Source: Aurantiochytrium sp. KH105 (taxonomy: Eukaryota; Sar; Bigyra; Thraustochytrida; Thraustochytriidae). Taken from it: 64,000 bases of DNA. The DNA is taken from assembly GCA_003116975.1 (NCBI GenBank), contig BGKB01000170.1:83041-147040 (forward strand), in the 5' to 3' direction. Position 1 is the stretch's first letter; every line of letters begins with the position of its first letter. The position numbers and the translations under genes are program-made. Shown here in pieces: positions 3,090-38,660 of the stretch. The notes under the pieces were generated by a model. It worked only from the letters and a program-made list of their open reading frames with translations, had not been told where the DNA came from and did no database searches.

Positions 3090-5774
3090 ATGAGCTCGCG
3101 CGACGCCAAGCGCACGCAGCGCCTGAGTAAGGACCGGAGCCAGCGCCTCAGCCAGCGGCAGCTCGAGGCGGTTCCTTTTGACGATGGCAACCCTCGCAGA
3201 TAGTCCCTTCGTCTTGCGCCGAGCCCTGAAGTCGTCCAAGAAGCCGAACGCAAGCTCGTCGCGAGCAATCAGAGCGGCCCGGGGGACGAAGTTTTCCCAG
3301 CCGAGGCCCGCGCCATCATCGATCCTCGTAGCATCTCCTTTCGCGCCGTCAAAGCCATCTACGAAGACGTGCTTAGTGGAGCCTTGGTCCCGGACGTCGA
3401 GCTCTTTGAAGCTTCGCGAGACCTCTCCGAAAAGATCACCATAGGAACAACTATCAAGGTCTCTGAGGAGAACGAGGATGGCTCTCGCGAAGGCCGCGTC
3501 CACTACGCCGATGAGCAAATTGCGTTTATGCCCGGCGAAGACGCCAAAGTAAAAAAACGCTGTGACTGGGCCACCGAGGATATTGCGCAGTACGTAATTC
3601 CTGAACTGATTACAAACGACAAGCAAATCTACCTCCACCATCTTGACGATGCTGATGTGGGTGGCGAGTTCCAGGGCACATTTGTGAGCCAGGCGCGGAA
3701 AACTCGATTCAGAGATCTCGTCTCCGCGCTGGAAGCCCACTTTGGCGATAAGGCGGCGTCCGCCTTTGTCTGGCTCGACATCTTTAGCGCCAACCAGCCA
3801 GAACTCACACGTCGCGACGGAGGTACGCCTGATGAAATGAGAAAGGCCTATGAGGAGTACATGACAGTTGGTCTTCATCGCGCCATTGCCAAGTTTGAGG
3901 AATTGGTGGTGTTTTTTGACCACTGGGACATACCAGCTCCTCTGCAGCGCGCGTGGTGCGTGTGGGAGGTGCTGGGAGCCGTAAAGGCCGACCGGCCTCT
4001 ACGGATTGTCATTACACCAGGTGAGGAGGAAGACTTTGAGGAGCAGCTTCTTGAGAATCCTTATGAGATTGCCAAGATCATGGCAGACAACAATGACATG
4101 CGCAACGCCAAGTGCTACAAAGCTGAAGATAAGAAGATGATTGACGATGCTGTCAGAGAAATCGACGGGGACTTTACAAAGCTAAATATGGTGGTGAACG
4201 ACCGTGTGCGAGAGTGGCATATGCAAATGGCTCGACAAGCAGTCGTCAAAGCACGACAGCGAGAGAATGAAGAGGGTCTGGCGGATATTCTTTGGAGTGC
4301 CGGGGCTCTTTTCAATAGCCAAGGCTTATCAAATGAGGCCTTGACGAATTTCGAGGAAGCGCTGTCGATTCGCAAGGAAATTCCTGGCGACCGGCATCCC
4401 GATGTGGCGACAACTCTCAACAACATCGCCCTAGTGTATCACTCACAAGGCCGCTACGAGGAGGCCTTGGCGAACTTCGAGGAAGCGTCGATTCGCAAGG
4501 AAAGTCTTGGCGACCGGCATCCCGATGTAGCTAACACGCTCAACAACATCGCCGGCGTGTATGACTCACAAGGCCGCTACGAGGAGGCCTTGGCATACTA
4601 CGAGGAAGCGCTGTCGATTCGCAGGGAGAGTCTTGGCGACCGGCATCTCGATGTGGCTGACACGCTCAACGACATCGCCGGCGTGTATGACTCACAAGGC
4701 CGCTACGAAGATGCCTTGGCATACTACGAGGAAGCGCTGTCGATTTGGAGGGAGAGTCTTGGCGACCGGCATCTCGATGTGGCGACCACGCTCAACAACA
4801 TCGCCATCGTGTATGACTCACAAGGCCGCTACGAGGAGGCCTTGGCGTACTACGAGGAAGGTCTTTCCATCAGCAAGGAAAGTCTTGGCGACCGGCATCC
4901 CAATGTGGCGTCCACGCTCAGCGGTATCGCCTCTGTGTATTACTCACAAAGCCGCTACGAGGAGGCCTTGGCGTACTGCGAGGAAGCGCTGTCGATAAAG
5001 AAGGAAAGTCTTGGCGACCGGCATCCCTCTGTGGCGACTACGCTCAACAACATCGCCAATGTGTACAAAGCACAAGGCCGCTGCGAGGCGGCCTTGGCAT
5101 ACTACGAGGAAGCGCTGTCGATTTACAAGAAAAGTCTTGGCGACCGGTATCCCGATGTGGCGACCACGCTCAGCGGTATCGCCTCTGTGTATTACTCACA
5201 AAGCCGCTACGAGGAGGCCTTGGCGTACTACGAGGAAGGTCTTTCCATCAGCAAGGAAAGTCTTGGCGACCGGCATCCCGATGTGGCGACTACGCTCAGC
5301 GGTATCGCCAATGTTCACAAAGCACAAGGCCGCTACGAGGAGGCCTTGGCGTACTACGAGGAAGCGCTGTCGATTTACAAGAAAAGTCTTGGCGACCGGC
5401 ATCCCTCAGTGGCGACCACGCTCAACAACATCGCCAGCGTGTATGACTCACAAGGCCGCTACGAGGAGGCCTTGGCGTACTACGAGGAAGCGCTGTCGAT
5501 TTACAAGGAAAGTCTTGGCGACCGGCATCCCGATGTGGCGACTACGCTCAGTGGTATCGCCAATGTGTATGACTCACAAGGCCGCTACGAGGAGGCCTTG
5601 GCGTACTACGAGGAAGCGCTGTCGATTTACAAGGAAAGTCTTGGCGACCGGCATCCCTATGTGGCGTCCACGCGCAGCAACATGCGAATCACGAGAGAGA
5701 GGATGCAAGCGAACACCAAGAGACGGTTCCCGCTGCAGAAGCTCGCGTGCTTTTGGGGCAAAAAAAAGACGTAA
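3090..5774 (+). CDS. WLDIF/AWCVWE-domain protein with kinesin-light-chain-type TPR array; one in-frame stop near the start
   Basis: From TAG 3201 the frame is open to TAA 5772, but there is no ATG in it before the conserved region; coding-like sequence begins at 3204 (SLRLAPSPEVVQEAERKL). The only upstream in-frame ATG is 3090, separated by the TAG. A candidate intron at 3127-3240 (GTAAGG...CCAAG, 114 bp) would remove it in frame. The N-terminal region has a domain with WLDIFSANQPE and AWCVWEVLG, which in many protist proteins sits before TPRs and resembles a TIR-like fold (inference). Then come ten complete 42-residue TPR units (LGDRHPDVATTLNNIA, SQGRYEEALAYYEEAL) and two degenerate ends. 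One early unit lacks a Leu. TPRs bind partner proteins. Function unknown; scaffold or sensor is plausible. Confidence 0.8.
3127..3240 (+). other. Candidate short intron in the TPR gene
   Basis: GTAAGG at 3127 is a good donor and CCAAG ending at 3240 a weak acceptor. Removal of these 114 bases keeps the 3090 and 3204 frames joined and deletes the in-frame TAG at 3201. The acceptor lacks a pyrimidine tract, unlike the two clear introns in this window, so confidence is low; a base-call error or a true nonsense change are alternatives. Confidence 0.3.
4390..5690 (+). repeat. 126-bp coding tandem repeat (TPR units)
   Basis: About ten near-identical 126-bp units, each one 42-residue TPR. Blocks such as GGCCGCTACGAGGAGGCCTT recur almost unchanged at the DNA level, and neighbouring units share variants (YYSQSRYEEA, YKAQGR) in a mosaic way. 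This suggests recent unit duplication or conversion. Because 126 is a multiple of 3, a shifted plus frame also stays open and gives spurious reading frames at 4561-4998 and 5011-5817. Confidence 0.9.
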
Positions 5775-19802: not shown

Positions 19803-20508
19803 CTCGGCAAGGAATGAGGTCTGCGACTCCGAGCCCTTGCAATCGGCCTTTACCTTTTATGGTGATCCAAGGCCCTTGAGATCAGCCAGTCAAGACAAGG
19901 TCATGGATGATGGTGACAGACAGTGGAAGCCTCGCGACGGACTCCGGCAAGAGAGCCTTGGCTGCGCTAGGAGATCAAGCTGCGAAGCACACCGCAGCAG
20001 AAGCACCTTGTGGATGTGCTGGTGATTTCTCTGATCAAGATCAGCCAGATGCTCGTATGTATGTATGTATGTATGTATGTTTGATGATGAAAAAGGCGCA
20101 GAAGCACGCGGCATGCCTATCCAATGGGAAGCAGGAGATGTGCATGGGTGACCCGCAGCCCAGGCCAGCGCAGCCCGTTCAGCTGCGTGCAGGCCGCCGA
20201 CATCGACAGCGCGCAGCCCGTGTGTGATCGCCGCCTCGCGTGTTCCTCTCCTCACCCCAAGGCCGCGCCTCCTGCCGCGCCTCGAACCTCCTCGCCAGCA
20301 GCAGCTCCCGGCCCTTTCCGCCGCGGCAGGCTGCCGCTGTCCCCTTTCTCTTCTCTTCGCTTCGCTTCGCAGTCAGTGCAGGTTCCGCAGGATCCGCGCG
20401 TCCGTCGTGCGCCGCGGCGGCCAGCAGCCCGCGCAGAGCGGGGCGGAGCAGAGCCCGGAGACGCGCAGCCGCGGCCCTGCGCAGCGCGGCGCGGCGCGGC
20501 GCGGCGGC
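19803..20508. promoter_or_regulatory. Divergent spacer between TELO2 and FAD-SelD
   Basis: About 700 bp between divergent starts. It contains a TATG microsatellite (20055-20080) and becomes extremely GC-rich (GCGGCGCGGC runs) toward the ATG at 20509. Open frames in it lack ATG starts. No gene supported. Confidence 0.45.
20055..20080 (+). repeat. (TATG)n microsatellite
   Basis: About six copies of the tetramer, in the TELO2/FAD-SelD divergent spacer. Confidence 0.95.
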
Positions 20509-23364
20509 ATGGGCGCGGCGTGGAGCTGCGCGGCGTGGCTGGCGCGGGGCCTGCGGCGCGCGCCGCTGAGCCCGTTCTGGCCGGACTGGGCCTGCGAGGC
20601 GGCGCGCGCGGCGGCGGCGCAGCCCTGGGCGGCGCGAGCCCGGGCGCGCGCGGGCGGGGGCGGCCGCGCGGGGGGCGNCGCCGCCAAGGGGCTGGCCGCC
20701 GCGCTCGGCGGATTGGCGGCGCTCTTTTCAAACCGCTGGCCGGCCGCCGCGCTGGGGCTGGGCCTGCTGCGCGCGGCAGACGCGCTTGGCGGCGGCCACG
20801 CGGCGGCCGAGGCGGGCGCGGCGGAGGCGGCGGCGGCGGCAGGGCCCATGCGCGTGTTCTCGCCCGCGGCCGCGCTGAGGTCGCAGGCGGCCGCCTCGAG
20901 GGGCGCCGGGGCGATGATGGGCGCGGCGGCGAACGGCGCGGGCCCCGTGAGCCGCGACCTCGTGCTGGTGGGCGGCGGGCACGCCCACGCGTTCGTGGTC
21001 AAGAACATGGGCATGAAGCCCGAGCCCGGGCTGGCCGTGACTCTCATCACACCGCAGGTGGACACGCCGTACTCGGGGATGCTGCCAGGGCACATCGCCG
21101 GCCAGTACGAAAGGGAGGAGTGCCACATCGACCTCGTGCGGCTCTGCCAGTTCGGAGGCGTGCGGCTCGTGATCGCCTCGGCGACGTCCATCGATCTCGA
21201 TCAGAAACTCGTGCACGTCGACGACCCGGAGCGGCCCCCCATCCGCTACGATGTCTTGTCCATCGACATTGGGTCCGCTCCGCAGATCAAGGACAGCGCC
21301 TTGTCCCACGCCGACGCCAGCCTTGTGGCAACGCCGGTCAAGCCGATCTGGCAGTTTTCTGAGCGCTGGGACGCCCTCGTGCGCTCCATCGAGTCCCGTG
21401 TTCAGGCAAGCGAGGAGCAGAGAGAAGAAGATGATGATCAAGCACAAGCACAAGCACAAGCACAAGGAGGAGCCGGGGCAGAGTCGGGCTCAGCCAAGAT
21501 TGACGAGCTCACGATTGGCGTGGTCGGTGCAGGCGCAGGCGGCGTCGAGCTCGCGCTCTCGATGCAGTATCGCCTCGAGGGGCTCTCTTCACAGCACTTC
21601 AAAATCAAGTTCGTGCTCTTCAGCAACAAAAAAGTAGTGTGTCCCTCGCACAGCCGCGCCGTACAGAAAAAGTTTGCACGCATCCTCGAGGAGCGCGGGG
21701 TGAGCGTCGTCTACAACTTTGAGGTGGTGGGCATTGAAGAAAGCCGTCTCCGTGCAGCCGATGGGCGCATTGTCAATGTTGACGAGTGCATCTGGTGCAC
21801 GAGCGCACGTACGCAAGACTGGATGGGAGGTTCTGGTTTGGCTGTCGATAACGGCGGCTTTGTTCGAGTCAAACAAACCTTGGAGAGCGAGTCGACGCCC
21901 AACGTCTTTGCAGCTGGCGACTGCGCCAACATGCTCGACCACCCGCGTCCCAAGGCTGGCGTCTTCGCCGTGCGTCAGGGACCTCCCCTGGCGGCCAATC
22001 TGCGCCGCGCCGTTCGGAACCTGAGTCTCCCCGCCTCGGCTTCTCCCGAGACGCTCGAGGAGTACATTCCTCAAAAATCCTTTCTTGGGCTCATCGGGAC
22101 TGGGCGTCCTTACTGCGTTGCCTCTCGGGGCGAGATTGCCCTCGAGGGCAAGTGGCTATGGAAAATGAAGGACTACATTGATCGCAAATGGATGGCAGGA
22201 TTTACCACCCAGCTGCCAATCATGGCCGGTGAAAGCCACAATGTCGGCGCTGGAGAGGGCACCGAGGAGAATCAGAGCCTCGAGGCCTTGACTCAGGCAT
22301 CTCTCATGCGATGCGGCGGCTGCGGCGCCAAGGTTGGCAAGTCTGTTCTCGATCGGGTTGTGCAGAATCTCAATCCGCCCACACGGGCCGAGGTCGAAGT
22401 CGGCCTTGACCATCCAGACGATTGTGCCGTCGTTCAATTTGACTCGGCGCATGATGATGCCCCCAAAGTTGTGCAGACGGTCGACTTTTTCCGCTCTTTT
22501 GTGAACGACCCCTATATCTTTGGCCAAATTGCGGCCAATCATGCGCTTAGTGACTGCCATGCCATGTGCGCCGAGGCCGTAACCGCAATGGCGATTGCCG
22601 TTGTTCCCTTTGCGGCAGAAAGGGTCGTGGAGGGCACGCTCACGCAGCTCATGGCGGGCGCAAACACAGCTCTTCGGGACAGCAATTGCGCTCTCGTCGG
22701 GGGCCACTCGTGCGAAGGCAAGGACCTTGCTCTTGGACTTTCGGTTAGTGGCGTCGTTCAGCCTGGACAGCGCATTCTCACCAAGGGGGGCGTTCTTGCT
22801 GGCGATGCGCTCATTGTCACCAAGCCTGTGGGCACAGGCACGCTTTTCGCTGCGAACATGCGCGTTTTGGCCAAAGGTGCCTGGGTCGAGGGCGCCATCA
22901 AGAGCATGTTAGTGTCGAACAAGGACGCGGCGCTGCTGGCGCGCGACCATGATGCAACTGCGTGCACGGATATCACGGGCTTTGGTCTCATTGGCCACCT
23001 AGTCGAGATGATGCAAGCCAGTGACCCAAGCCTGATGGCTACTGTACAAGCCGAGGACGTTCCCATGCTCGAGGGTGCCGCAGAGTGCGTCGAGGCGGGC
23101 ATCTTTTCGTCACTGCAACTGCAGAACACGCGTTTGCGTCGAGCGATTGCCAATCATGCAGAAGCGGCGGCTGCTCATCCTGCATTGTATCCGCTTCTCT
23201 ATGATCCGCAAACCTCTGGCGGTCTTCTTATATCGGTGCCGTCTGCAAAGGCACAAGATCTTGTCAGTGCGCTACGCGAAAGCGGTTATCCGCAAGCAAA
23301 CATTGTCGGCGTTGTTGAGGCGGAAAGTGAGAGTGCGCCCGGCCAGCAAGTTAAAGTGTTGTGA
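20509..23364 (+). CDS. FAD-dependent oxidoreductase fused to selenide, water dikinase (SelD)
   Basis: The first in-frame ATG of the long open frame is 20509, giving 951 residues. The first 140 residues are Ala/Arg/Gly-rich, with MGAAWSCAAWLARGLRRAP resembling an organelle presequence. An N at 20678 falls in codon 57. Residues about 148-520 are a pyridine-nucleotide-disulfide/NDH-2-like oxidoreductase: FAD motif LVLVGGGHAHAF, second dinucleotide site TIGVVGAGAGGVELA, and FAD-ribityl motif NVFAAGDCANM. Residues about 600-951 are SelD: RCGGCGAKVG with catalytic-type Cys605 and Lys608, DDCAVV, ANHALSDCHAM, LVGGHSCEGKDLAL, DITGFGLIGH, DPQTSGGLL. SelD makes selenophosphate from selenide and ATP for Sec-tRNA. 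The active residue is Cys, not Sec. The fusion is known in bacteria and some algae; the oxidoreductase may supply reduced selenium (inference). Confidence 0.93.
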   Translation: MGAAWSCAAWLARGLRRAPLSPFWPDWACEAARAAAAQPWAARARARAGGGGRAGGXAAKGLAAALGGLAALFSNRWPAAALGLGLLRAADALGGGHAAAEAGAAEAAAAAGPMRVFSPAAALRSQAAASRGAGAMMGAAANGAGPVSRDLVLVGGGHAHAFVVKNMGMKPEPGLAVTLITPQVDTPYSGMLPGHIAGQYEREECHIDLVRLCQFGGVRLVIASATSIDLDQKLVHVDDPERPPIRYDVLSIDIGSAPQIKDSALSHADASLVATPVKPIWQFSERWDALVRSIESRVQASEEQREEDDDQAQAQAQAQGGAGAESGSAKIDELTIGVVGAGAGGVELALSMQYRLEGLSSQHFKIKFVLFSNKKVVCPSHSRAVQKKFARILEERGVSVVYNFEVVGIEESRLRAADGRIVNVDECIWCTSARTQDWMGGSGLAVDNGGFVRVKQTLESESTPNVFAAGDCANMLDHPRPKAGVFAVRQGPPLAANLRRAVRNLSLPASASPETLEEYIPQKSFLGLIGTGRPYCVASRGEIALEGKWLWKMKDYIDRKWMAGFTTQLPIMAGESHNVGAGEGTEENQSLEALTQASLMRCGGCGAKVGKSVLDRVVQNLNPPTRAEVEVGLDHPDDCAVVQFDSAHDDAPKVVQTVDFFRSFVNDPYIFGQIAANHALSDCHAMCAEAVTAMAIAVVPFAAERVVEGTLTQLMAGANTALRDSNCALVGGHSCEGKDLALGLSVSGVVQPGQRILTKGGVLAGDALIVTKPVGTGTLFAANMRVLAKGAWVEGAIKSMLVSNKDAALLARDHDATACTDITGFGLIGHLVEMMQASDPSLMATVQAEDVPMLEGAAECVEAGIFSSLQLQNTRLRRAIANHAEAAAAHPALYPLLYDPQTSGGLLISVPSAKAQDLVSALRESGYPQANIVGVVEAESESAPGQQVKVL
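20678..20678. other. Ambiguous base in the GC-rich N-terminal region of FAD-SelD
   Basis: One N in a run of G/C in codon 57 of the fusion gene. Frame is kept on both sides if it is one base, but by analogy with 40420 it could hide a gap. Confidence 0.6.
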
Positions 23365-25595: not shown

Positions 25596-27266
25596 TTACT
25601 CGCTCTTTATTTCAATTGTCGACTCCAAGTCGGTCTCTTCAGCCTGGTCTGGGCTGTCAGTAGCTTCACTCTTAATATGGTCATCCGCATGAGCTCTGTG
25701 CCTCTTGTCTTTCTTCTTGTGTTTCTTGTGCTTTTTGTGTCTCTTTGCCGCTCCCTCGTCCTCCTCATCATTCTTGCGGCCAGCGTCACTAACATTCGTG
25801 TGAGCATTGTTCTGCTGTGCAGCGCTGTCAGGCCCATTCACAAGATCCAAAACGGGCTGACTGTTGCTGTCGCTCTCCGTGTTGGCCTCCTCTGACTTTC
25901 CGTCTTTGCTATCAGCACTGGCCAGATCGTCGTTCATCAAGTTCGAGTCGTCTTCGTCGACAGAGCCAACAATGTATTCTTTGAGCATGGGATCCACGGC
26001 GTCGAGGGCGCCAGAATTGTGGCCCAAAATGTCCGCCTGACTCGATTGAAGGGGCATTGACATGGCAGGACTTGGCGTCGCGTCGGGAGAGGTTGTAGTG
26101 CGTCGCTTGTGCGAGAATGACGCAATCACCATGGCCTTGACTTGGGCGCGCTTAATTTTTTCGTCGAGCGCGTGGCGCTTCTTCTGCGCCATCTTTGAGG
26201 CGTAGAGAATTGAGTTGGGTTTGAACCAGCGATCGGAAATGTGCATAATCTGGTCCATGATCGCAGCTGTATAGGCCCCCAACGGAAGGTCGTTCGGATC
26301 GTCGTCAAAGGGATTCTCCATTTGGCCTGCAAGCTTGGCGAGTCCGTTCAGCACACAGCTACACACTGTGCAAATGACGGCCACGGAGATGGGATTCCAC
26401 TTGTCGCTAAGAAGCGAAAAAGGGAGCGAGCCTAGAAACAGAAAAATGACAAGATCCAGAAATACACGATACATGTCCGGAATTGGCGTGTCTTTGATGC
26501 GCAGACAGCTTCCGAAGCACTCGTTGAGCGCCTGGATCTTTGGTTCTAACACGAGATTGACTGTGGAGGCTGGAATGGTGCCCTCATTCATCATCATTAC
26601 CACCGTGCCGGACATGAGGTCCAGAATGGCGAGCGCGCGATCTTGCGCCGAGTGCTGCAGCACGTACTCAAGGTCGAGCTCACTTAAAATGAGTTTGAGC
26701 TCTTTACGATCGAATTCGTACTCTCCTCGCAAGCAATTTTTCATGGCAATGGGAAAGGCGATCGAGTACATGGCAAAGGACATGGACGTTGGCTTGCTGT
26801 GGTTGTAGGCTAGGACGGAGCGGACGAGATCGCGAGAGACGGTGGTGAGCCTTCCCCAAGCGCTCCTGCCTTCCCACCATCGAAGCATGCCTTCTCGCTG
26901 CCGGAATGCAACCATGAGGCCGACGACCCAGCCGAGAATGTCAACGTATCCCATGGACTCGGCCAAGTTTTCGCTGCCCATAAGTGTGAATTGTGCGTAG
27001 GAGGCGATGCCGCAGTGGTACAGCGCAAAGGTGAGCACTCGCAACTGTGCAAATAGATCCCAGACGCCCTTGAGCGAGAGCATCGTTGAGGGCTTTTGAT
27101 CGCGCGCCTTGAGCAGCTTTCTGTCTACATGCGCAATGGTGTGCTTGGCCTCATTGATTTCCCGCGTTATTTTTGTTGTGTTCGCGCGGGTAAGGATCAC
27201 TTGCCCCATGGGCGAGACGGCGGACGATGCCGTCCGGTAGCGCTTGGCGCTCGTGCGCGTCGCCAT
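25596..27266 (-). CDS. Bestrophin-family anion channel
   Basis: 556 residues from ATG 27266 to TAA 25596. The core (about 55-370) matches bestrophin/UPF0187: VWDLFAQLRVLTFALYHCGI, the signature AFRQREGMLRWWEGRSAWGR (F-R...R-W-x-E-G-R-x-x-W), VFLDLVIFLFLGSLPFSLLS, and MENPFDDDPNDLPL, the acidic ENPF segment that in bestrophins forms the Ca2+ clasp. Bestrophins are pentameric chloride/bicarbonate channels. The C-terminal tail (about 380-556) is acidic and polar and ends with a Lys/His cluster (KRHKKHKKHKKKDKRHRAHA), probably disordered. Location could be plasma membrane or organelle; no clear presequence is seen. The start is supported by a stop-free frame and a plausible context. Confidence 0.9.
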   Translation of the reverse strand: MATRTSAKRYRTASSAVSPMGQVILTRANTTKITREINEAKHTIAHVDRKLLKARDQKPSTMLSLKGVWDLFAQLRVLTFALYHCGIASYAQFTLMGSENLAESMGYVDILGWVVGLMVAFRQREGMLRWWEGRSAWGRLTTVSRDLVRSVLAYNHSKPTSMSFAMYSIAFPIAMKNCLRGEYEFDRKELKLILSELDLEYVLQHSAQDRALAILDLMSGTVVMMMNEGTIPASTVNLVLEPKIQALNECFGSCLRIKDTPIPDMYRVFLDLVIFLFLGSLPFSLLSDKWNPISVAVICTVCSCVLNGLAKLAGQMENPFDDDPNDLPLGAYTAAIMDQIMHISDRWFKPNSILYASKMAQKKRHALDEKIKRAQVKAMVIASFSHKRRTTTSPDATPSPAMSMPLQSSQADILGHNSGALDAVDPMLKEYIVGSVDEDDSNLMNDDLASADSKDGKSEEANTESDSNSQPVLDLVNGPDSAAQQNNAHTNVSDAGRKNDEEDEGAAKRHKKHKKHKKKDKRHRAHADDHIKSEATDSPDQAEETDLESTIEIKSE

Positions 27267-29240: not shown

Positions 29241-31805
29241 TTAGCGCGAGCCAGTCTGTTTCTCGCATCGGTACACGAAGGCAGGTGGTAGGTTCGCCCA
29301 GACAATGTTGGAGCGCTCGACTTTTTCAAATGTCTCGTCAAGCAGTGCCTTAAAGTTCTGCCCCGCAGGCAAGACGAGACCTTGGAGGTAGGCAAAGGTG
29401 CAGAACCGCCCGCCCGGCCGCAACGAGGCGTAGACGGCCAAGAGAATCTTTCGCTGCAAGCTCTTCGGAAAAATCGCCCAGGGAAGTCCGCTGATGACCG
29501 TGTCGGCGTGGTGGAGGCCGCGCTCGTGCAGGGCGTCAACGATCCGTTCTGCAGATTCGAGCAAGAATGCGTCCTTGTGGTCAGGAAAACGGTCACACAG
29601 ACGGTCGACAAACTCCTTGGACAGCTCAAAGGCCAAATATGTGGCGTTCTTGGATGTACTGAGACGCTTGAGGATGACCGCGGTAAAGGGGCCGGTTCCA
29701 GGTCCAAGCTCAACCACGACTGAATTATCGCCAAGGTCCATTGTGTCGCACATGGCTTCGGCAAGCTGTTCCGAGCTCGGGGCGAGGGCGCCCGTCTCGA
29801 CGGGATGTTTGACCCAATTCGCAAGGAACAAGGCTGTCTCGCTGCGACGGATCTCGCTTACCTTTGAGACAATGGCGCGGCCCAAAGCTGTAGATTCGGT
29901 GCGTACCTGCTGTTTGTAGACTGCACGCAAGTGCGGCTTCTCGATGACGTTGAGGAAGGCAATCATGATACCGTGACCCAGAATGGCAACCGCGAGAACT
30001 TCGGGGGAAGACGCGAGGACAGCGAGCCCGTACATCCAGAGGTGACCCAGATATGTATCGGGGTTGTTGAGGTAGCGGTAGAGGCCATCGTACGTGGGCG
30101 CAGGGCCGGCGGCGCTGTTCAGACGGGCTGGTGGCAAGAAGAAGTCGCCGTAGAATGTTCCAAAGTCCCCCATAACCTGATAGCAGGCCCCATGTGCCCA
30201 AAGCGCCACGACAACGAGGAAGACCCCCAGCATGACTTGGCAGGCAACCCCTGCAGTCAGTACATTGTCTGGCACGTGTACGAAGCGGATCGCGCACATG
30301 ATGAAGCTCGACGTCTCAAGGCCGCCAAAGAGAAGGTAAATACGCTTCCAATTCTCGAATGCCTGGACGCGGGATCGCCCGGCAGCCTGGTAGTGTCGCG
30401 TCCAGCGTTTGTCCTTTTCCTGGCCAATGAGGATAAGTCCCTTGATGAGGGCCGAGGCCAGTCGGACCCCCACGGCAATGAGAATCATGGGCATTTGGCC
30501 CTCAAAGGGGCCGCCCGGAAACGAGCCCACCCAAACGGAGCTGATAAAGAGGCAAATGGAGAGGATCAAGAGCACATCGGCAGCGCGATATATATCAAAG
30601 TGGCGCAGCAAGTAAATGTAAGAAGTTCCGACGAGGGTGACGTCGTGAATGACGCCGTCGCGCATAGCCTCCATCTCGGCGTGCAAGAGCGAATTTCCGC
30701 TGCCATAGAGCTCGTCCACGTGGGGCGCTTCAATCAGGATGAGAAAGATGAGCTGAGAAAAGTGGAAGCCCATCGCACAGGCCAGGACCTGGTAGCTACG
30801 CGACAACAGGGCGCAGCCATACATCCAGCCGTACCCGACCGTGTACATGGGATGCGGAAAGAGTGCAAAGACGCCGGCGTACGTGAGCTCCATCGTGCCT
30901 GTGCGCAGAAAGAAAAAATCGAACCAGAACCACGCAGGATCGCCCGCGTGCGCCATGGCTGCAACTTTTCCGCCCAGGCTTGCGATGACGAGGACGACGC
31001 CGACGAGATCGATCAACGGGCTGAGCAGGGGCCAATCGAAGGTGGGACGTTCCTGGAAGCCGTAGCTCACGGCCATGAGTGTGAATGCAAGCACGTCGTT
31101 GCTTTCGACCATAATAACAAAGCTGCGAAAGGCGACCCAGGCCGCGAAAGAAGGCGGGAGCCGGGCATTGTTGATGACCTCGTGATCGTTGGGCATGGTG
31201 CTGCGGAGCACGCCGCTCCAAAAGGTGTTTTCCGGAGAAAAAGGCCGACGCCGCACGCGGGTGATCCACTGCGTGAGGAAATTCTCCTTGCTTTCCTTGC
31301 GCAGCAACCAGCCCACGCCACCGTTGTACATGAGTCGCCACATACAAGCCACGACGAGGATGATGAAGGGCTGATTGGCCCACACGACCGTGCAAAAAAT
31401 CGACGTGAGAAATCCAAGATACGCCAGGAGCGACGGCAGTGTGTACCATTTGCGAAAGAGCGAATGGGAAAGGGAGTGCGTGGCAGGCACGTCAAAGACG
31501 CGCTGGCCATCAAGGGTGATGCCCACGTCGTGTTGCGGGGCTACAATCTTTCTGGCGGCGATGCGCTTGGCGCGCGGAATGCTTTTCTCTTCGCTTTCGC
31601 TTGATTCTTTCTTCTCTTTCCAGTACTCTCCGGACATGGTGGCGTCCTCCTCGCTGCTGTTCCTCGACCTGAGCATGCGCGCGTGGAGCGCGTTGTCGAT
31701 CCTTTCGGATTCTTCGCCATCTTCAAAAGCGGAGAGATCTGTCTGTGACGAATCGCCCGTGGACCAAAAGCTTCCGCCGTTTTCGGTGCTTCCGCGACGC
31801 CGCAT
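29241..31805 (-). CDS. CHO2-type phosphatidylethanolamine N-methyltransferase fused to a PmtA-type soluble methyltransferase
   Basis: 854 residues from ATG 31805 to TAA 29241. After an acidic, Ser-rich N-terminus (1-95), residues about 110-640 are a polytopic CHO2-like region with two methyltransferase modules: FALFPHPMYTVGYGWMYGCA with LIEAPHVDELYG, and YRYLNNPDTYLGHLWMYGLA with VIEKPHLRAVYKQQVRTES. These are hallmark elements of yeast Cho2, which methylates PE to monomethyl-PE in the ER. Instead of Cho2's usual C-terminus, residues about 661-854 form a class I SAM methyltransferase resembling bacterial PmtA: WVKHPVETGALAPSSEQLAE, SAM motif VVELGPGTGPFT (about 697-708), and VISGLPWAIFPKSLQRKILL, then LRPGGRFCTFAYLQG. 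A single polypeptide could therefore carry out several methylations to phosphatidylcholine (inference). No frameshift or stop separates the parts. Confidence 0.88.
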   Translation of the reverse strand: MRRRGSTENGGSFWSTGDSSQTDLSAFEDGEESERIDNALHARMLRSRNSSEEDATMSGEYWKEKKESSESEEKSIPRAKRIAARKIVAPQHDVGITLDGQRVFDVPATHSLSHSLFRKWYTLPSLLAYLGFLTSIFCTVVWANQPFIILVVACMWRLMYNGGVGWLLRKESKENFLTQWITRVRRRPFSPENTFWSGVLRSTMPNDHEVINNARLPPSFAAWVAFRSFVIMVESNDVLAFTLMAVSYGFQERPTFDWPLLSPLIDLVGVVLVIASLGGKVAAMAHAGDPAWFWFDFFFLRTGTMELTYAGVFALFPHPMYTVGYGWMYGCALLSRSYQVLACAMGFHFSQLIFLILIEAPHVDELYGSGNSLLHAEMEAMRDGVIHDVTLVGTSYIYLLRHFDIYRAADVLLILSICLFISSVWVGSFPGGPFEGQMPMILIAVGVRLASALIKGLILIGQEKDKRWTRHYQAAGRSRVQAFENWKRIYLLFGGLETSSFIMCAIRFVHVPDNVLTAGVACQVMLGVFLVVVALWAHGACYQVMGDFGTFYGDFFLPPARLNSAAGPAPTYDGLYRYLNNPDTYLGHLWMYGLAVLASSPEVLAVAILGHGIMIAFLNVIEKPHLRAVYKQQVRTESTALGRAIVSKVSEIRRSETALFLANWVKHPVETGALAPSSEQLAEAMCDTMDLGDNSVVVELGPGTGPFTAVILKRLSTSKNATYLAFELSKEFVDRLCDRFPDHKDAFLLESAERIVDALHERGLHHADTVISGLPWAIFPKSLQRKILLAVYASLRPGGRFCTFAYLQGLVLPAGQNFKALLDETFEKVERSNIVWANLPPAFVYRCEKQTGSR

Positions 31806-33203: not shown

Positions 33204-36200
33204 ATGGAGGCCGACGTGCGGCGCAGCGTCCGTGCGCTCGGTGCGACGCAGGGCGCAGGGAACGCGCGTTGCGCTGAGGAGACCTTTTTTGGCGGTCTCT
33301 GGGCTGCGCGACATGCCGCCAAGGCAGCAAACCTTGACGACGACGACGACGACGAAGGACAGAGACGAGACCTTGAAGAAGACGGCAATCATGCCAGTGA
33401 GAGCGAATGGCGTGAAAAGAGGAATGCAAGACGCGCGAATGAGATTCTTCGTGCCTTCGAATTCAACTTCAGACGCGAGGGTCACGCGAGAGCTGCAGAA
33501 ACCCTCGACGCATGCCTCGAATATCTTGGCACCTCGTATACAGGGGATGCGCTCCCCAGTGTGCTCACACTCCTTTCCATGCTAGCGAGATCGTATTCAG
33601 AAGATCCTGTGTCTCATTCGAGCCGGCGCGAAAGATCTCCCTCGCAGGTGATCCTCTCGGATACTGCGGACCGCCTTCTTGCAGCATCAAGCGCTATCGC
33701 TCACGGGCACGCATCTCTCGCCCCCCAAGCATCTCAAATGTCGATGAATAGTGAAGCGCCAGGTATGGACCCCAGTCTCATTCGCACAGTTTCCCTCACG
33801 CCGAGTGCTCAACGGCTTTTGGGCACATCCACCGACGGTCCCGCAACGACCTTGCGTCTGCGCGTCCAGACCCGGACGCCAGCCTCTGAGCTCAAGCGCT
33901 ATCCTTTGCTGCCTTTTGATGAGACTTCATGGGCCGAGGCTGCGGAGAATGGATCCCAAGTCTTTAGGCGACTCCAGGGCGAAAATGACATCACCGAAGA
34001 GGAACAGTGGAACCCTTCGATGAATCTCGAAAGATTAACCATGGACCCGACATCCAGGCCAGCGAGGGAAAGTGATCCCCAGAACGTGGACGAAAATTTT
34101 GGAAATGCGCCCGGAAATATGTGTGCAGATTTCTTGGAGCCACTGCCGTCCAAAGATTGTCTTCTCGGCGCGCTCGTATCCCAGACGCGAAGTACCCTTT
34201 CCGAGGTGAACATCACCTTGTCTTTGCCTGAGCTTGACACCGAATATGACGGATTTGCCCCAGACCCGCTCGGGTTAAAAATCGCACAAGATCGACACCT
34301 AGCATCCCTGAAACAACAGCGGAATAAGGGGAAACGAACTGTACCGGGGGCGGCGGAAAGAAAGCTGAGGTATCCTCAAGATGCCTCTGAAATTCTCGAT
34401 GAAAGAGCCAGTTCGTCTGATTCTCTGCTTTGTGAAGTTCGCTGGCCTCCCGAAGAGGACCTCTGGCTTCGTCTCGCCCACACGGCGCACCCGCTGCCTC
34501 CACGGCTGCTATTGGGCTGGGAGGAGGAAGTTGCGGCAAGCTTCGAGACCAGTGTTCCTCACGACGAGTGCTTGAAGGCTCTACAATACAGCTCGCACGC
34601 GGTTCTCTCTTCGGAACGGGGGCCAATGTGGCTCGAACATCTCATTCAACACAGCGGGCGATTTGAAAGGTCGCGAGGTGCTGCTGTAATCACCGCGCAA
34701 GAATTGCAAAGAGACCTTGTCTACGCGCTGCTTGGAGTTCCCAGCCGCTCATTCGAGCTGCACACAGACCCGCTTCGACTCGAGCCCTGCGAAACCCGGC
34801 TGCTTGCCGGCACTGTCGAAGGTCTTGGCGCTGTGCTCGACCAAGTGGCCGCCTGCGGCTCGACTTACCTTGCACTCGCCAACCTTTGCAAAGGAGATCC
34901 TATTCTACCCGAAGCCGAGGTTGCAGAAGTCGTGGTGGAGCGAATTGACGCGCATCTCTTGGCGCATCAACGTCGCGTGGGTCTTCTCTTTCAGAGCGCT
35001 TCGCAATCTGAGCACGACGCAATTTCCCTTTTGGAGATCTCTCATCGAATCGAAATGTCTCTGGCGCCACCTCTTCGTCGTTTACGTGCTCTCTTCGCCG
35101 TGCCTCGCGCTTCCGTGACCACAATCCAGATGCTTGAGCATTTTCACGCCTCAGCGCTCGCAAGTGGTGCGTCTCTTCGCTCAATGGAACGTGGGATGCT
35201 TTGGTGCTGTCTCGAACGCGTCGTCGACGTTCTTGCAGGCTGGAGCTTTGGAGGCGCGGACGCCTTCGAGCATTTTGATGGGTGCTTTTTCCGTCATGCA
35301 ATCACCGGAGACGAAGCCTCGAGCAAGGATGGCAGCTCTCCGTCTCACGAAGCCTTGTTGGCAGCGGTGACCGAGAAGCGGCTTCTCTACGCTTTGCATC
35401 TCCCTTCCTTTTGCAAGTCGTCCTTGCGGGGAGTCTCGAGTCCGTCGCTCGCACGCAGAGCCACACGGTGTGGCGCCTTGCTCCGCTTGCTTCGTGGCAT
35501 GCCAAACTGCGCCGAGCTCTACGAATTGTGCACGCGAAAGACCGATCAGGACGCTTTTCGCCTCGATGCCTTGCGCGCAGGGAACGGGGCGAATGCAATT
35601 TTCTTGCAAAAAGTCCTGCACGAGTCCAGCGAACGCAAACAGCACTTAATTGCCAAGGTTGCGGAGCATTGCAACGAGTCCGAAAAGAAACGCTTCCTCG
35701 AGCAGGAAGCTCGGCGCAAGGAGGCATGGAAGGTTATTGAGGATTCGCGCATTGCAGCTGAAGCCGTCAACGCGCGGTTCATTGCTCGCAGTGAGGAAGA
35801 GCAGCGCCGCATCGAAGCTGAGCGAAAGGCTCAGCTTGAAGAGTTTCGCGCCGCTGCGGAGGATGCAAAATCGGCCAAGGTTCGCGCGCGGCTCGAGAAA
35901 CAACGCCAAGAGCGTGAGGAGCAGCCCCGGGATTTAACCTCGCCTATTTCCGATGAGCAACGCACCGAGGCAGAACACTATCTGCTCGAGCAGTTCGAAC
36001 GTCTTGCGCAAGAACAGGCCGAACAAGGAGGGGTCCTTGATGCCAAACTTGCCGCTGCCAAACATGAGCTCGAAACAAAGCTGGCCTCTTTGCAAACTGC
36101 GAGTCAGGATTCCTTTCAGCGTTCTGACGCCACGACTTCAGTGGTTGTGCAGCAGCCCCCAGGCGGGCACTCCGTGGCCGCCTCTCTCCTTTACGGCAAT

Positions 36201-38660
36201 GAAAACGCTACAGGACGAAGTCGCTCGGCTGTGCATATTGTTGGACGTGCCGAAGACGGCATCGACGCTCGCGCGGCTATTTCCAATGAGCCATTGGCTC
36301 GTGATCACGGCGTGAAGACTTCTGTACACATTGTTAACCACGCTGAAGAAGGCGCAGATGCTCGCGCCGCTATCTCAAATGAACCTCTTCCCGCAGATGT
36401 AGATGCACGTTCCTCAGTACAGATCGTGAAGCGAGACAAAGAAGAAGGAGTCGATGCTCGAGCGGCCATTTCCGACGAACCTCTCGCTTCCAGCACAAAT
36501 GCGCGAACTTCCGTTCAGATTGTCAAACGAGACAAAGAAGAAGGCGCCGACGCTCGAGCGGCAATTTCCGACGAGCCTCTCGCTTTTAGTCCAAACGCGC
36601 GGACCTCCGTTCAGATTGTCAAGCGAGACAAAGAAGAAGGCGCAGATGCTCGAGCGACCATCTCCGACGAGCCTCTCGCTACCAGTCCAAATGCGCGAAC
36701 TTCCGTTCAGATTGTTAGACGAGACAAAGAAGAAGGCGCCGACGCTCGAGCGGCAATTTCCGACGAGCCTCTCGCTTCTAGTCAAAACGCGCGAACTTCC
36801 GTTCAGATTGTCAAGCGAGACAAAGAAGAAGGCGCAGATGCTCGAGCGGCCATCTCCGACGAGCCTCTCGCTTCCAGTCCAAATGCGCGAACTTCCGTTC
36901 AAATCGTGAAGCGAGACAAAGAAGAAGGAATCGATGCTCGAGCGACCATCTCCGACGAGCCTCTCGCTTCCAGTTCAAATGCGCGGACTTCAGTTCAGAT
37001 TGTCAAGCGAGACAAAGAAGAAGGCGCCGATGCTCGAGCGGCCATCTCCGACGAGCCTCTCGCTTCCAGTCCAAATGCGCGAACTTCCGTTCGCATCGTC
37101 AAGCGAGACAAAGAAGAAGGCGTCGATGCCCGCGCGGCGATCTCTGACGAGCCTCTCGCTGCCGGTGTTAATCCACGACCAACAGTGCACATTGTTGGTA
37201 GCGTTTCCCCTCAAGCGTCCAAAACAGCAAAGCCGTCTGTCAGAGTCCAGCAAAGCCCAGGAGGCGAGACATCCTTTGTTTTCGGCGTGCATCCCGACGC
37301 CACGCGTCCTGCGGTGCAAGTGAACCAGCCAGCAGGAGGTCACAGCAGCATCGAGGCGCTAATGACGCGGACGAACCGGTCCAAATCTGAGGAATCTGAG
37401 CGCGATGCCATGGAAAGCCTTGCGCGCCGCCAGAAAACAGTGCGCCGCATCCGCGACGCGATGGTCTCTGCCAAGCCTTTACGGTATGGAGATGCGATTC
37501 TTTCCGATGTAGAAGAATGCAGACAGCCACCCGGCGGTGCAGCCAAGCAGGAAATATTAGATTCGCTGGAAGACCTGGGCTGCGACGATGCGCCATGTGG
37601 CGCTCTTGATGCAGCTATTGAGCTCGCCGTAGTTGAACCGCTTCTGCAACAGTGTGATCTCGTCGAAGCGACCTTTGTGGCGGTGGTTGTGCGCCAGTCC
37701 AATGTCTTGGAGGCGCTGGACGGCGTACGAAGTACGATCCTCATGGCACAAGGCGACCTTTACAACGGAATCGTCGATCGCCTGTATGAGATGCGTTTGC
37801 GCGACGGCGACCTTCGGCATCGCAAGGGCAGGGTTCTGCAAGAAGTCTTCGCGTCAGAGGCAGACGGGCTTGCTTTGACGGAGCGACCGTTTGCAAGCCG
37901 CTTTCACTATGCGGTCGACGTCACATGTGAGGCCGCTCACAGCGGACACTCAGAGTTTTCAAAATTTGCCTTTGTAGATGCACAGTACGAACTACATTGG
38001 CCTCTGTCCTTTATCGTGCGCGAGCAGGACAAGGCGGCATATCCGCAAATTCACCGCTTTCTCCTTCAACTCAAGTATGCTGGGGCACTGGTGCGCAGAG
38101 TTTGGACGCGACTATGTGCAACCAAAGCGCTAGGACGTCTCCCCGTTCTCACGTGGCTGTCAACGCGATGGCACCAGGTTCGGAACCTCATATCGAACCT
38201 TGAAGACTACCTCATGACCACTCTACTGACGGAACACTGGGCTGCGATGCAGGCAGCCTTTGGCGCTCCTTGTGCATCTTTCCGGCACCCGCATGAGTTG
38301 CAAGAGATTCATCATCGATTTGTAGAAGCGGCTATGCGTACATGCTTTTTGGATGGCTCGAATGTCTCAAAGGTGCTTCACGAATGCGTGAGCCGCGCAA
38401 TGGAGCGCACCGATGCGCTCGCGCGGCACAGTCTCCACCTGCTCGATGAGCTACTCGACGGCGCAGAGACAAATGTGCAGCGACGCGAGGACATCAAAGT
38501 ACCGCGAGAGCTAGAGCAGGCTTGGCGCGAGTTCAGCAAAACGCAGACGTTCTTACTGCGCACCGTGCAATCGTACTCGCGTAGCGCACTCTCCTCTGAC
38601 GGTGCGGCGCAACGCATTCTCGTGCACTTGAACTTTAATTGCTTTTTCTCGAGCGCCTAG
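33204..38660 (+). CDS. GCP6-like gamma-tubulin complex component with repeat array
   Basis: 1818 residues from ATG 33204 to TAG 38658, a size close to vertebrate TUBGCP6. The N-terminal Spc97/98 (GCP) domain starts near residue 490: AVITAQELQRDLVYALLGVP, then SRSFELHTD. A helical coiled coil follows (about 815-915, KKRFLEQEARRKEAWKVIED and EEEQRRIEAERKAQLEEF). An insert (about 1008-1330) holds about ten 32-residue repeats. The C-terminal gamma-tubulin-binding domain spans about 1456-1818 (DAAIELAVVEPLLQQCDLVE, GDLYNGIVDRLYEMRL, PLSFIVREQDKAAYPQIHRF, WHQVRNLISNLEDYLMTTLL). GCP6 nucleates the gamma-tubulin ring complex. The long insert between the two GCP domains, with tandem repeats, is the architecture of GCP6 rather than GCP2-5. 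Four PGG motifs flank the array and recall microtubule-binding motifs of SPIRAL1/Jupiter-type proteins (inference). Confidence 0.88.
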   Translation: MEADVRRSVRALGATQGAGNARCAEETFFGGLWAARHAAKAANLDDDDDDEGQRRDLEEDGNHASESEWREKRNARRANEILRAFEFNFRREGHARAAETLDACLEYLGTSYTGDALPSVLTLLSMLARSYSEDPVSHSSRRERSPSQVILSDTADRLLAASSAIAHGHASLAPQASQMSMNSEAPGMDPSLIRTVSLTPSAQRLLGTSTDGPATTLRLRVQTRTPASELKRYPLLPFDETSWAEAAENGSQVFRRLQGENDITEEEQWNPSMNLERLTMDPTSRPARESDPQNVDENFGNAPGNMCADFLEPLPSKDCLLGALVSQTRSTLSEVNITLSLPELDTEYDGFAPDPLGLKIAQDRHLASLKQQRNKGKRTVPGAAERKLRYPQDASEILDERASSSDSLLCEVRWPPEEDLWLRLAHTAHPLPPRLLLGWEEEVAASFETSVPHDECLKALQYSSHAVLSSERGPMWLEHLIQHSGRFERSRGAAVITAQELQRDLVYALLGVPSRSFELHTDPLRLEPCETRLLAGTVEGLGAVLDQVAACGSTYLALANLCKGDPILPEAEVAEVVVERIDAHLLAHQRRVGLLFQSASQSEHDAISLLEISHRIEMSLAPPLRRLRALFAVPRASVTTIQMLEHFHASALASGASLRSMERGMLWCCLERVVDVLAGWSFGGADAFEHFDGCFFRHAITGDEASSKDGSSPSHEALLAAVTEKRLLYALHLPSFCKSSLRGVSSPSLARRATRCGALLRLLRGMPNCAELYELCTRKTDQDAFRLDALRAGNGANAIFLQKVLHESSERKQHLIAKVAEHCNESEKKRFLEQEARRKEAWKVIEDSRIAAEAVNARFIARSEEEQRRIEAERKAQLEEFRAAAEDAKSAKVRARLEKQRQEREEQPRDLTSPISDEQRTEAEHYLLEQFERLAQEQAEQGGVLDAKLAAAKHELETKLASLQTASQDSFQRSDATTSVVVQQPPGGHSVAASLLYGNENATGRSRSAVHIVGRAEDGIDARAAISNEPLARDHGVKTSVHIVNHAEEGADARAAISNEPLPADVDARSSVQIVKRDKEEGVDARAAISDEPLASSTNARTSVQIVKRDKEEGADARAAISDEPLAFSPNARTSVQIVKRDKEEGADARATISDEPLATSPNARTSVQIVRRDKEEGADARAAISDEPLASSQNARTSVQIVKRDKEEGADARAAISDEPLASSPNARTSVQIVKRDKEEGIDARATISDEPLASSSNARTSVQIVKRDKEEGADARAAISDEPLASSPNARTSVRIVKRDKEEGVDARAAISDEPLAAGVNPRPTVHIVGSVSPQASKTAKPSVRVQQSPGGETSFVFGVHPDATRPAVQVNQPAGGHSSIEALMTRTNRSKSEESERDAMESLARRQKTVRRIRDAMVSAKPLRYGDAILSDVEECRQPPGGAAKQEILDSLEDLGCDDAPCGALDAAIELAVVEPLLQQCDLVEATFVAVVVRQSNVLEALDGVRSTILMAQGDLYNGIVDRLYEMRLRDGDLRHRKGRVLQEVFASEADGLALTERPFASRFHYAVDVTCEAAHSGHSEFSKFAFVDAQYELHWPLSFIVREQDKAAYPQIHRFLLQLKYAGALVRRVWTRLCATKALGRLPVLTWLSTRWHQVRNLISNLEDYLMTTLLTEHWAAMQAAFGAPCASFRHPHELQEIHHRFVEAAMRTCFLDGSNVSKVLHECVSRAMERTDALARHSLHLLDELLDGAETNVQRREDIKVPRELEQAWREFSKTQTFLLRTVQSYSRSALSSDGAAQRILVHLNFNCFFSSA
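36226..37197 (+). repeat. 96-bp coding tandem repeat (32-residue units) in the GCP6-like gene
   Basis: About ten units; the central eight are almost identical. Each reads roughly SVQIVKRDKEEGADARAAIS then DEPLASSPNART; the spacing of GTTCAGATTGTC copies (36513, 36609) is exactly 96 bases. The outer units are diverged (SAVHIVGRAEDG, TVHIVGSVS), a pattern expected of internal expansion. Confidence 0.95.

Follow-up and report, generated by a model that had tools for sequence, protein, structure and literature searches.

The methylation of PE has at least two biochemical answers, since the PEMT/Cho2 proteins and PmtA are independent solutions to one reaction. Fungal Cho2 is a large polytopic protein; its two PEMT repeats carry HP...YxxG and E-x-PH motifs, the second repeat having NNP in place of HP. 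The last 300 or so residues are not known to form a class I methyltransferase. In yeast, Cho2 makes MMPE from PE.

For the bacterial enzymes, PMC12139422 describes Agrobacterium PmtA (AtPmtA) as running PE to PC. Its Asp106 contacts the adenine, and the D106A mutant is almost inactive, while Y161A and Y161F lower the activity. Bradyrhizobium PmtA (BdPmtA) has Gly and Phe at two positions of the groove and gives mainly MMPE. The AtPmtA mutant I159F accumulates MMPE and forms less PC, and the BdPmtA mutant F161I yields more DMPE and PC. BdPmtX1 converts MMPE to DMPE and PC, and some Pmt proteins carry out all three steps (PMC12139422).

The locus described here unites both kinds of enzyme. It lies in a stretch of 64,000 nucleotides from Aurantiochytrium sp. 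KH105 (contig BGKB01000170.1, positions 83,041 to 147,040), called the window below. One open frame of 854 codons and a stop encodes a Cho2-like protein in which the place of the fungal C-terminal region is taken by a methyltransferase of bacterial type. The parts are of known kinds, and their combination is a domain architecture that we did not find described. A preliminary description knew of no earlier account of the architecture, and no Cho2-PmtA or Cho2-OlsG fusion was found in the literature searched, which comprised the available text of papers including PMC8590670, PMC12139422, PMC12493201, PMC9530390, PMC10864609, PMC8779180 and PMC4928187, and few subscription papers.

The Cho2-type half and the junction

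Table 1. Parts of the fusion gene and their positions in the window.
Feature	Positions	Strand	Remark
Whole fusion gene	29241..31805	-	single intact frame, 854 aa
First PEMT (PF04191) repeat, aa 267-369	30699..31007	-	64.3 bits; motifs FPHPMYTVGYGWMYG and IEAPH
Second PEMT (PF04191) repeat, aa 523-632	29910..30239	-	86.3 bits; motifs NNPDTYLGHLWMYG and IEKPH
Predicted helix aa 640-666, between last hydrophobic stretch and soluble domain	29808..29888	-	structure model
C-terminal class I methyltransferase domain, OlsG/PmtA-like, aa 648-854	29244..29864	-	NF041658 and NF045881 matches, fold
SAM-binding motif E699-L-G-P-G-T-G705	29691..29711	-	equals AtPmtA E/DXGXGXG 58-64
F804-A-Y806, equivalents of groove Phe and catalytic Tyr	29388..29396	-	AtPmtA I159 and Y161

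Residues 1 to about 110 of the fusion protein are polar, after which hydrophobic stretches extend across aa 122-623. The whole protein matches the Pfam PEMT family with an E-value of 4.8e-38, through two repeats that lie in one polytopic chain, as in Cho2-type proteins (Table 1). The repeats are 31% identical to each other over 129 columns (E 9e-13). The first carries HPMYTVGYGWMYG and IEAPH, so that both the HP and the E-x-PH motif are kept; the second keeps E-x-PH but has NNP where the first has HP. We take this motif pattern to be that of fungal Cho2. No match to a solved structure was found by sequence for aa 1-647.

The two halves join slightly upstream of position 29825, where the junction had been proposed. 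Matches to the NF041658 and NF045881 models start with aa 656 (about 29840). The alignment of some bacterial relatives reaches back to aa 648 (29864), where the query itself began. The predicted helix at the join has low model confidence, with block means of pLDDT between 51 and 74 over aa 641-670. An 18-residue stretch from aa 638, where the pLDDT is likewise low, has a hydrophobic moment of 0.451, the 97th percentile of the fusion protein. The model of the full-length protein has a mean pLDDT of 51.8, with almost all of the Cho2 half below 50, and gives no arrangement of the halves.

Authenticity of the fusion and its surroundings

A frame of this kind could be produced by an assembly that joined two genes, or by a bacterial contaminant, and the bacterial type of the C-terminal domain would fit such an origin. 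However, a second copy of the whole frame (L011) is present on another contig (C78), with equal length and no indels over 2565 coding bases. The copies differ by 55 substitutions, 49 of them at codon position 3; the ten that fall in codons 641 and later are all of this kind, and the protein of aa 648-854 is identical in both copies. Gapless coding substitutions therefore run across the join in two contigs that agree. The surroundings of the copies are 94% identical over 5467 columns. Since five further locus pairs of the genome (two PEMT-family, one ICMT, two choline kinase) are likewise 92-97% identical over kilobases, we read the two fusion copies as haplotypes, that on C78 presumably being the other haplotype. 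In the 76 Mb assembly the C-terminal domain has two matches at E ≤0.001 among the best three candidates scored, namely the window and C78 copies. The codon-usage distance between the halves is 0.360, and random splits average 0.367 (56% of 1000 splits gave an equal or larger distance), a uniformity as expected for a long-settled gene. The adjoining genes encode a bestrophin-family protein (25599-27266), whose family occurs in bacteria and fungi, on one side and a gamma-tubulin complex protein (33204-38657) on the other. More distant genes of the window encode TELO2, a LepA-type GTPase and a class C 7TM protein. In view of the gapless second copy, the uniform codon usage and the eukaryote-type genes on both sides, misassembly or contamination is an unlikely source of the fusion, and we consider it very improbable indeed. 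The single frame linking a Cho2-like region to a class I methyltransferase, as claimed in the preliminary description, is thus borne out by the same frame in the C78 copy.

The window contains a second fusion gene, a frame of 1046 aa at 20224-23361 on the plus strand in which AIRS and AIRS_C domains, of the selenide water dikinase type, come after a pyridine nucleotide-disulphide oxidoreductase domain. A further plus-strand frame of 801 aa (3369-5771) encodes a TPR array with ten stretches of TPR_12 and also matches the nephrocystin-3 TPR domain model. Elsewhere in the genome there are very large one-frame PKS/FAS-like genes, with open frames of 4476 codons on contigs C44 and C141 and of 5831 or 5708 codons on C56 and C27, each with several phosphopantetheine-binding sites. 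An examination of the PP-binding arrays did not reveal the tandem array known from thraustochytrids, no light-harvesting family turned up, and a search by rRNA pattern yielded nothing.

Family and fold of the C-terminal domain

With the whole protein as query, aa 656-848 match the model for planctomycete OlsG, an ornithine lipid N-methyltransferase (NF041658, E 2e-27), and that for PmtA (NF045881, E 5.9e-14). The values are 1e-28 and 2.7e-15 when aa 636-854 are used. The domain alone scores 100.5 bits with OlsG, the best-scoring named model across it, and 56.5 bits with PmtA, far under the cut-off of 350 bits in the first case and under that of 250 bits in the second. General Pfam methyltransferase models also match only below their cut-offs. 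The OlsG cut-off separates little, since it is passed by none of 149 genomes drawn from the phylum of a genome (G002) whose locus L030 is titled Rubripirellula; nor was a true OlsG reference above the cut-off found in nine host genomes. The domain had been described as PmtA-like. Its place in the PmtA/OlsG superfamily stands, but a PmtA proper would have to pass a cut-off that it does not reach, and OlsG scores higher. By its model scores it belongs to an OlsG/PmtA-like subfamily in which we found no characterised member, and is neither PmtA proper nor OlsG.

A structure model of the domain from 40 aligned sequences has a mean pLDDT of 92.0. In a Foldseek search of the PDB, chains of Agrobacterium PmtA (9ko3) occupy ranks 1-3 of 1985 matches with E up to 10. 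Their E-values are 2.4e-11 to 6.7e-11 and their TM scores by target 0.80-0.82; the next entry, 4pon, has E 9.5e-9. With 1246 PDB matches at E ≤0.001 and AtPmtA first, the modelled domain has a class I SAM-dependent methyltransferase fold. The sequence profile of the 40-sequence alignment also finds 9ko3 first in the PDB (E 5.9e-26, the next match 1.3e-10). The fusion domain thus shares with Agrobacterium and Bradyrhizobium PmtA the fold, the SAM motif, the catalytic Tyr and NxPP. It differs from them in being fused to a membrane protein, in having Ser at the place of D106 and in an identity of only 24-26% in the fold alignment.

Predicted active site

Residues of AtPmtA taken from PMC12139422 were mapped onto the fusion domain via the profile alignment and counted over 118 relatives. 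E58 corresponds to E699 (E in 118 of 118), E84 to E727 (E in 115), A107 to A752 (A in 94), A128 to G773 (G in 110), I159 to F804 (F in 108) and Y161, the catalytic Tyr, to Y806 (Y in 113). Asp106 is replaced by Ser751; Ser is found here in 50 and Asp in 40 of the 118 relatives, the three PmtA-like plasmid rows having Asp. Among the features expected of PmtA, the SAM motif and the equivalents of E84 and Tyr161 are therefore present, but Asp106 is not. The SAM motif, Tyr and NxPP are common to nearly all relatives. In the most OlsG-like row (L128, 159 bits) the places of G773, F804 and Y806 are taken by Cys, Val and Met.

As aligned, G773, F804 and Y806 match the set of BdPmtA rather than that of AtPmtA. 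Since the fusion carries this groove set, formation of MMPE from PE would be the main activity of the C-terminal domain, if PE is its substrate. The groove set is a weak guide to the product, because Gly and Phe are the common state among the relatives, and the case for MMPE is further weakened by Ser751 and by the better OlsG score.

Relatives and origin of the domain

Relatives were sought in plasmid records, in bacterial and archaeal species genomes and in viral collections. Among plasmid records, 196 had a tblastn match, and the best of these, in Nonomuraea gerenzanensis, was 46.6% identical. A profile scan of the species genomes, which used one motif pattern and so misses members lacking it, yielded at least 594 candidate stretches, of which at least 535 encode relatives. 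The best 80 of these were kept. Their sources include Planctomycetota, Verrucomicrobiota, Lentisphaerota, Actinomycetota and Acidobacteriota, and their identity to the fusion domain is 39-48%, the top identities (44-48%) being to bacterial proteins. Across 39 aligned rows, the identity is 37-48% along most of the domain's length. The free-standing OlsG/PmtA-like methyltransferases, among them those of Planctomycetota, Verrucomicrobiota, Lentisphaerota and Actinomycetota, mostly share the groove residues of the fusion. Two records titled archaeal, one of them Woesearchaeota, also hold an OlsG/PmtA-like methyltransferase (L062 and L071), with 40-41% identity to the fusion domain. Within up to 3 kb on either side of the 80 best loci, nothing resembling Cho2 or Opi3 was found, the two best Cho2 scores there having E-values of 0.64 and 0.78. 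The viral collections gave no match to the C-terminal domain or the Cho2 half, and phage records none to the whole protein.

In a quick tree of 119 rows the fusion domain pairs with a protein from a Victivallaceae MAG (SH-aLRT 94). Victivallaceae were considered as the donor and set aside, as the pair is absent from a careful tree of 49 rows, which leaves the place of the fusion domain unsettled. Grouping with Actinomycetota is not rejected in the 49-row tree (p-AU 0.381), nor is grouping with three PmtA-like plasmid proteins (p-AU 0.284). No single donor is supported. Judged from the relatives found in bacterial, archaeal and plasmid records, the C-terminal domain is bacterial in type, with transfer into the eukaryote as the simplest reading. 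The horizontal acquisition considered in the preliminary description, for which a comparison with bacterial profiles and a tree had been proposed, therefore remains likely, whereas neither the 119-row nor the 49-row tree fixes a donor.

Other lipid methylation genes

Two further small PEMT-family genes occur in the genome, each on two contigs (L012/L013 and L014/L015), with PF04191 scores of 41.9 bits for L012 and 37.9 bits for L014. They share the PEMT family with the fusion but have a single PEMT domain, with none of class I in the scanned frame. From their size and an HPQYLG motif we take both to be of the Opi3 type. Another match to PF04191 is an ICMT gene (L016). Two genes of choline kinase type are present as well, both of them on two contigs, with four of eight matches over the cut-off. 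A partner for the later methylations and probably a CDP-choline route are thus encoded. It had been suggested that the fusion could take PE to PC without an Opi3-type partner, and that a search for separate Opi3/PEMT genes would bear on this. With two such genes present, the fusion need not perform the whole path or replace Opi3, and the suggestion is not favoured. The genome has no match to PF13444, the family of OlsB-type acyltransferases. According to PMC12493201, eukaryotes lack ornithine lipids.

Possible functions of the fusion protein

From the fusion itself, the predicted fold of its domain, the conserved residues and the other PEMT-family genes, we infer a location, an activity, the step catalysed and a direction of transfer. 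A bacterial-type class I lipid methyltransferase of the OlsG/PmtA superfamily would have been captured as the C-terminal end of a eukaryotic polytopic Cho2-type enzyme. The Cho2 part would lie in the membrane, presumably that of the ER, and hold the soluble domain at the membrane face, with the predicted helix replacing the amphipathic anchor of PmtA itself. SAM and substrate motifs are kept in both halves, and both point to conversion of PE to MMPE, after which the two small PEMT-family enzymes would carry MMPE to PC. Two catalysts for the entry step are proposed because yeast Cho2 makes MMPE and the soluble domain has the Gly and Phe groove of BdPmtA. That the chain holds two working but unrelated PE methyltransferases, a eukaryotic membrane-embedded one and a soluble one of bacterial type obtained by gene capture, which act at the membrane surface on one methylation step or on consecutive ones, has in our view close to an even chance. 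The narrower proposal, in which both catalyse the first step and the small PEMT enzymes finish the path, is the reading we prefer, though it is put forward somewhat more tentatively.

The two active sites could instead divide the path from PE through MMPE and DMPE to PC, the Cho2 half acting first and the C-terminal domain in the later steps. Two sites on one chain could pass the lipid along, and PMC12139422 describes Pmt proteins that do all three steps as well as BdPmtX1, which acts on MMPE. Yet F804 corresponds to F161 of BdPmtA, and it is the I159F exchange in AtPmtA that leads to accumulation of MMPE with less PC (PMC12139422). Such a division would also be superfluous beside the two small PEMT-family genes, and we regard it as unlikely.

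It is also rather improbable that the C-terminal domain methylates another amino lipid, of the ornithine type or with some other amine head group, with the Cho2 half as a mere tether. OlsG as the best named model (100.5 versus 56.5 bits) and Ser at the D106 position would agree with this. However, the genome is without a PF13444 match, eukaryotes are reported to have no ornithine lipids (PMC12493201), the most OlsG-like row differs from the fusion at all three of G773, F804 and Y806, and the partner domain is of a PE methyltransferase family. The redundancy of two catalysts for one step, together with NNP in the place of HP in repeat 2, could indicate that one half only is catalytic, either because the Cho2 repeats are a scaffold or because the C-terminal domain binds SAM to regulate Cho2. 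Fungal Cho2 has the same NNP, repeat 1 retains both HP and E-x-PH and repeat 2 retains E-x-PH, and the soluble domain keeps the SAM motif, Tyr and NxPP of nearly all its relatives and shows no amino acid difference between the copies. We therefore assign a low probability to a single catalytic half.

As a protein with two unrelated catalysts for PE methylation, the fusion would bear on the rewiring of PC synthesis by gene capture and on the role of the many uncharacterised OlsG/PmtA-like proteins of bacteria. It would also represent a natural tether that places a soluble lipid methyltransferase on a membrane. The occurrence of both kinds in one chain makes it possible to ask directly why two chemistries for one step are retained in a cell.
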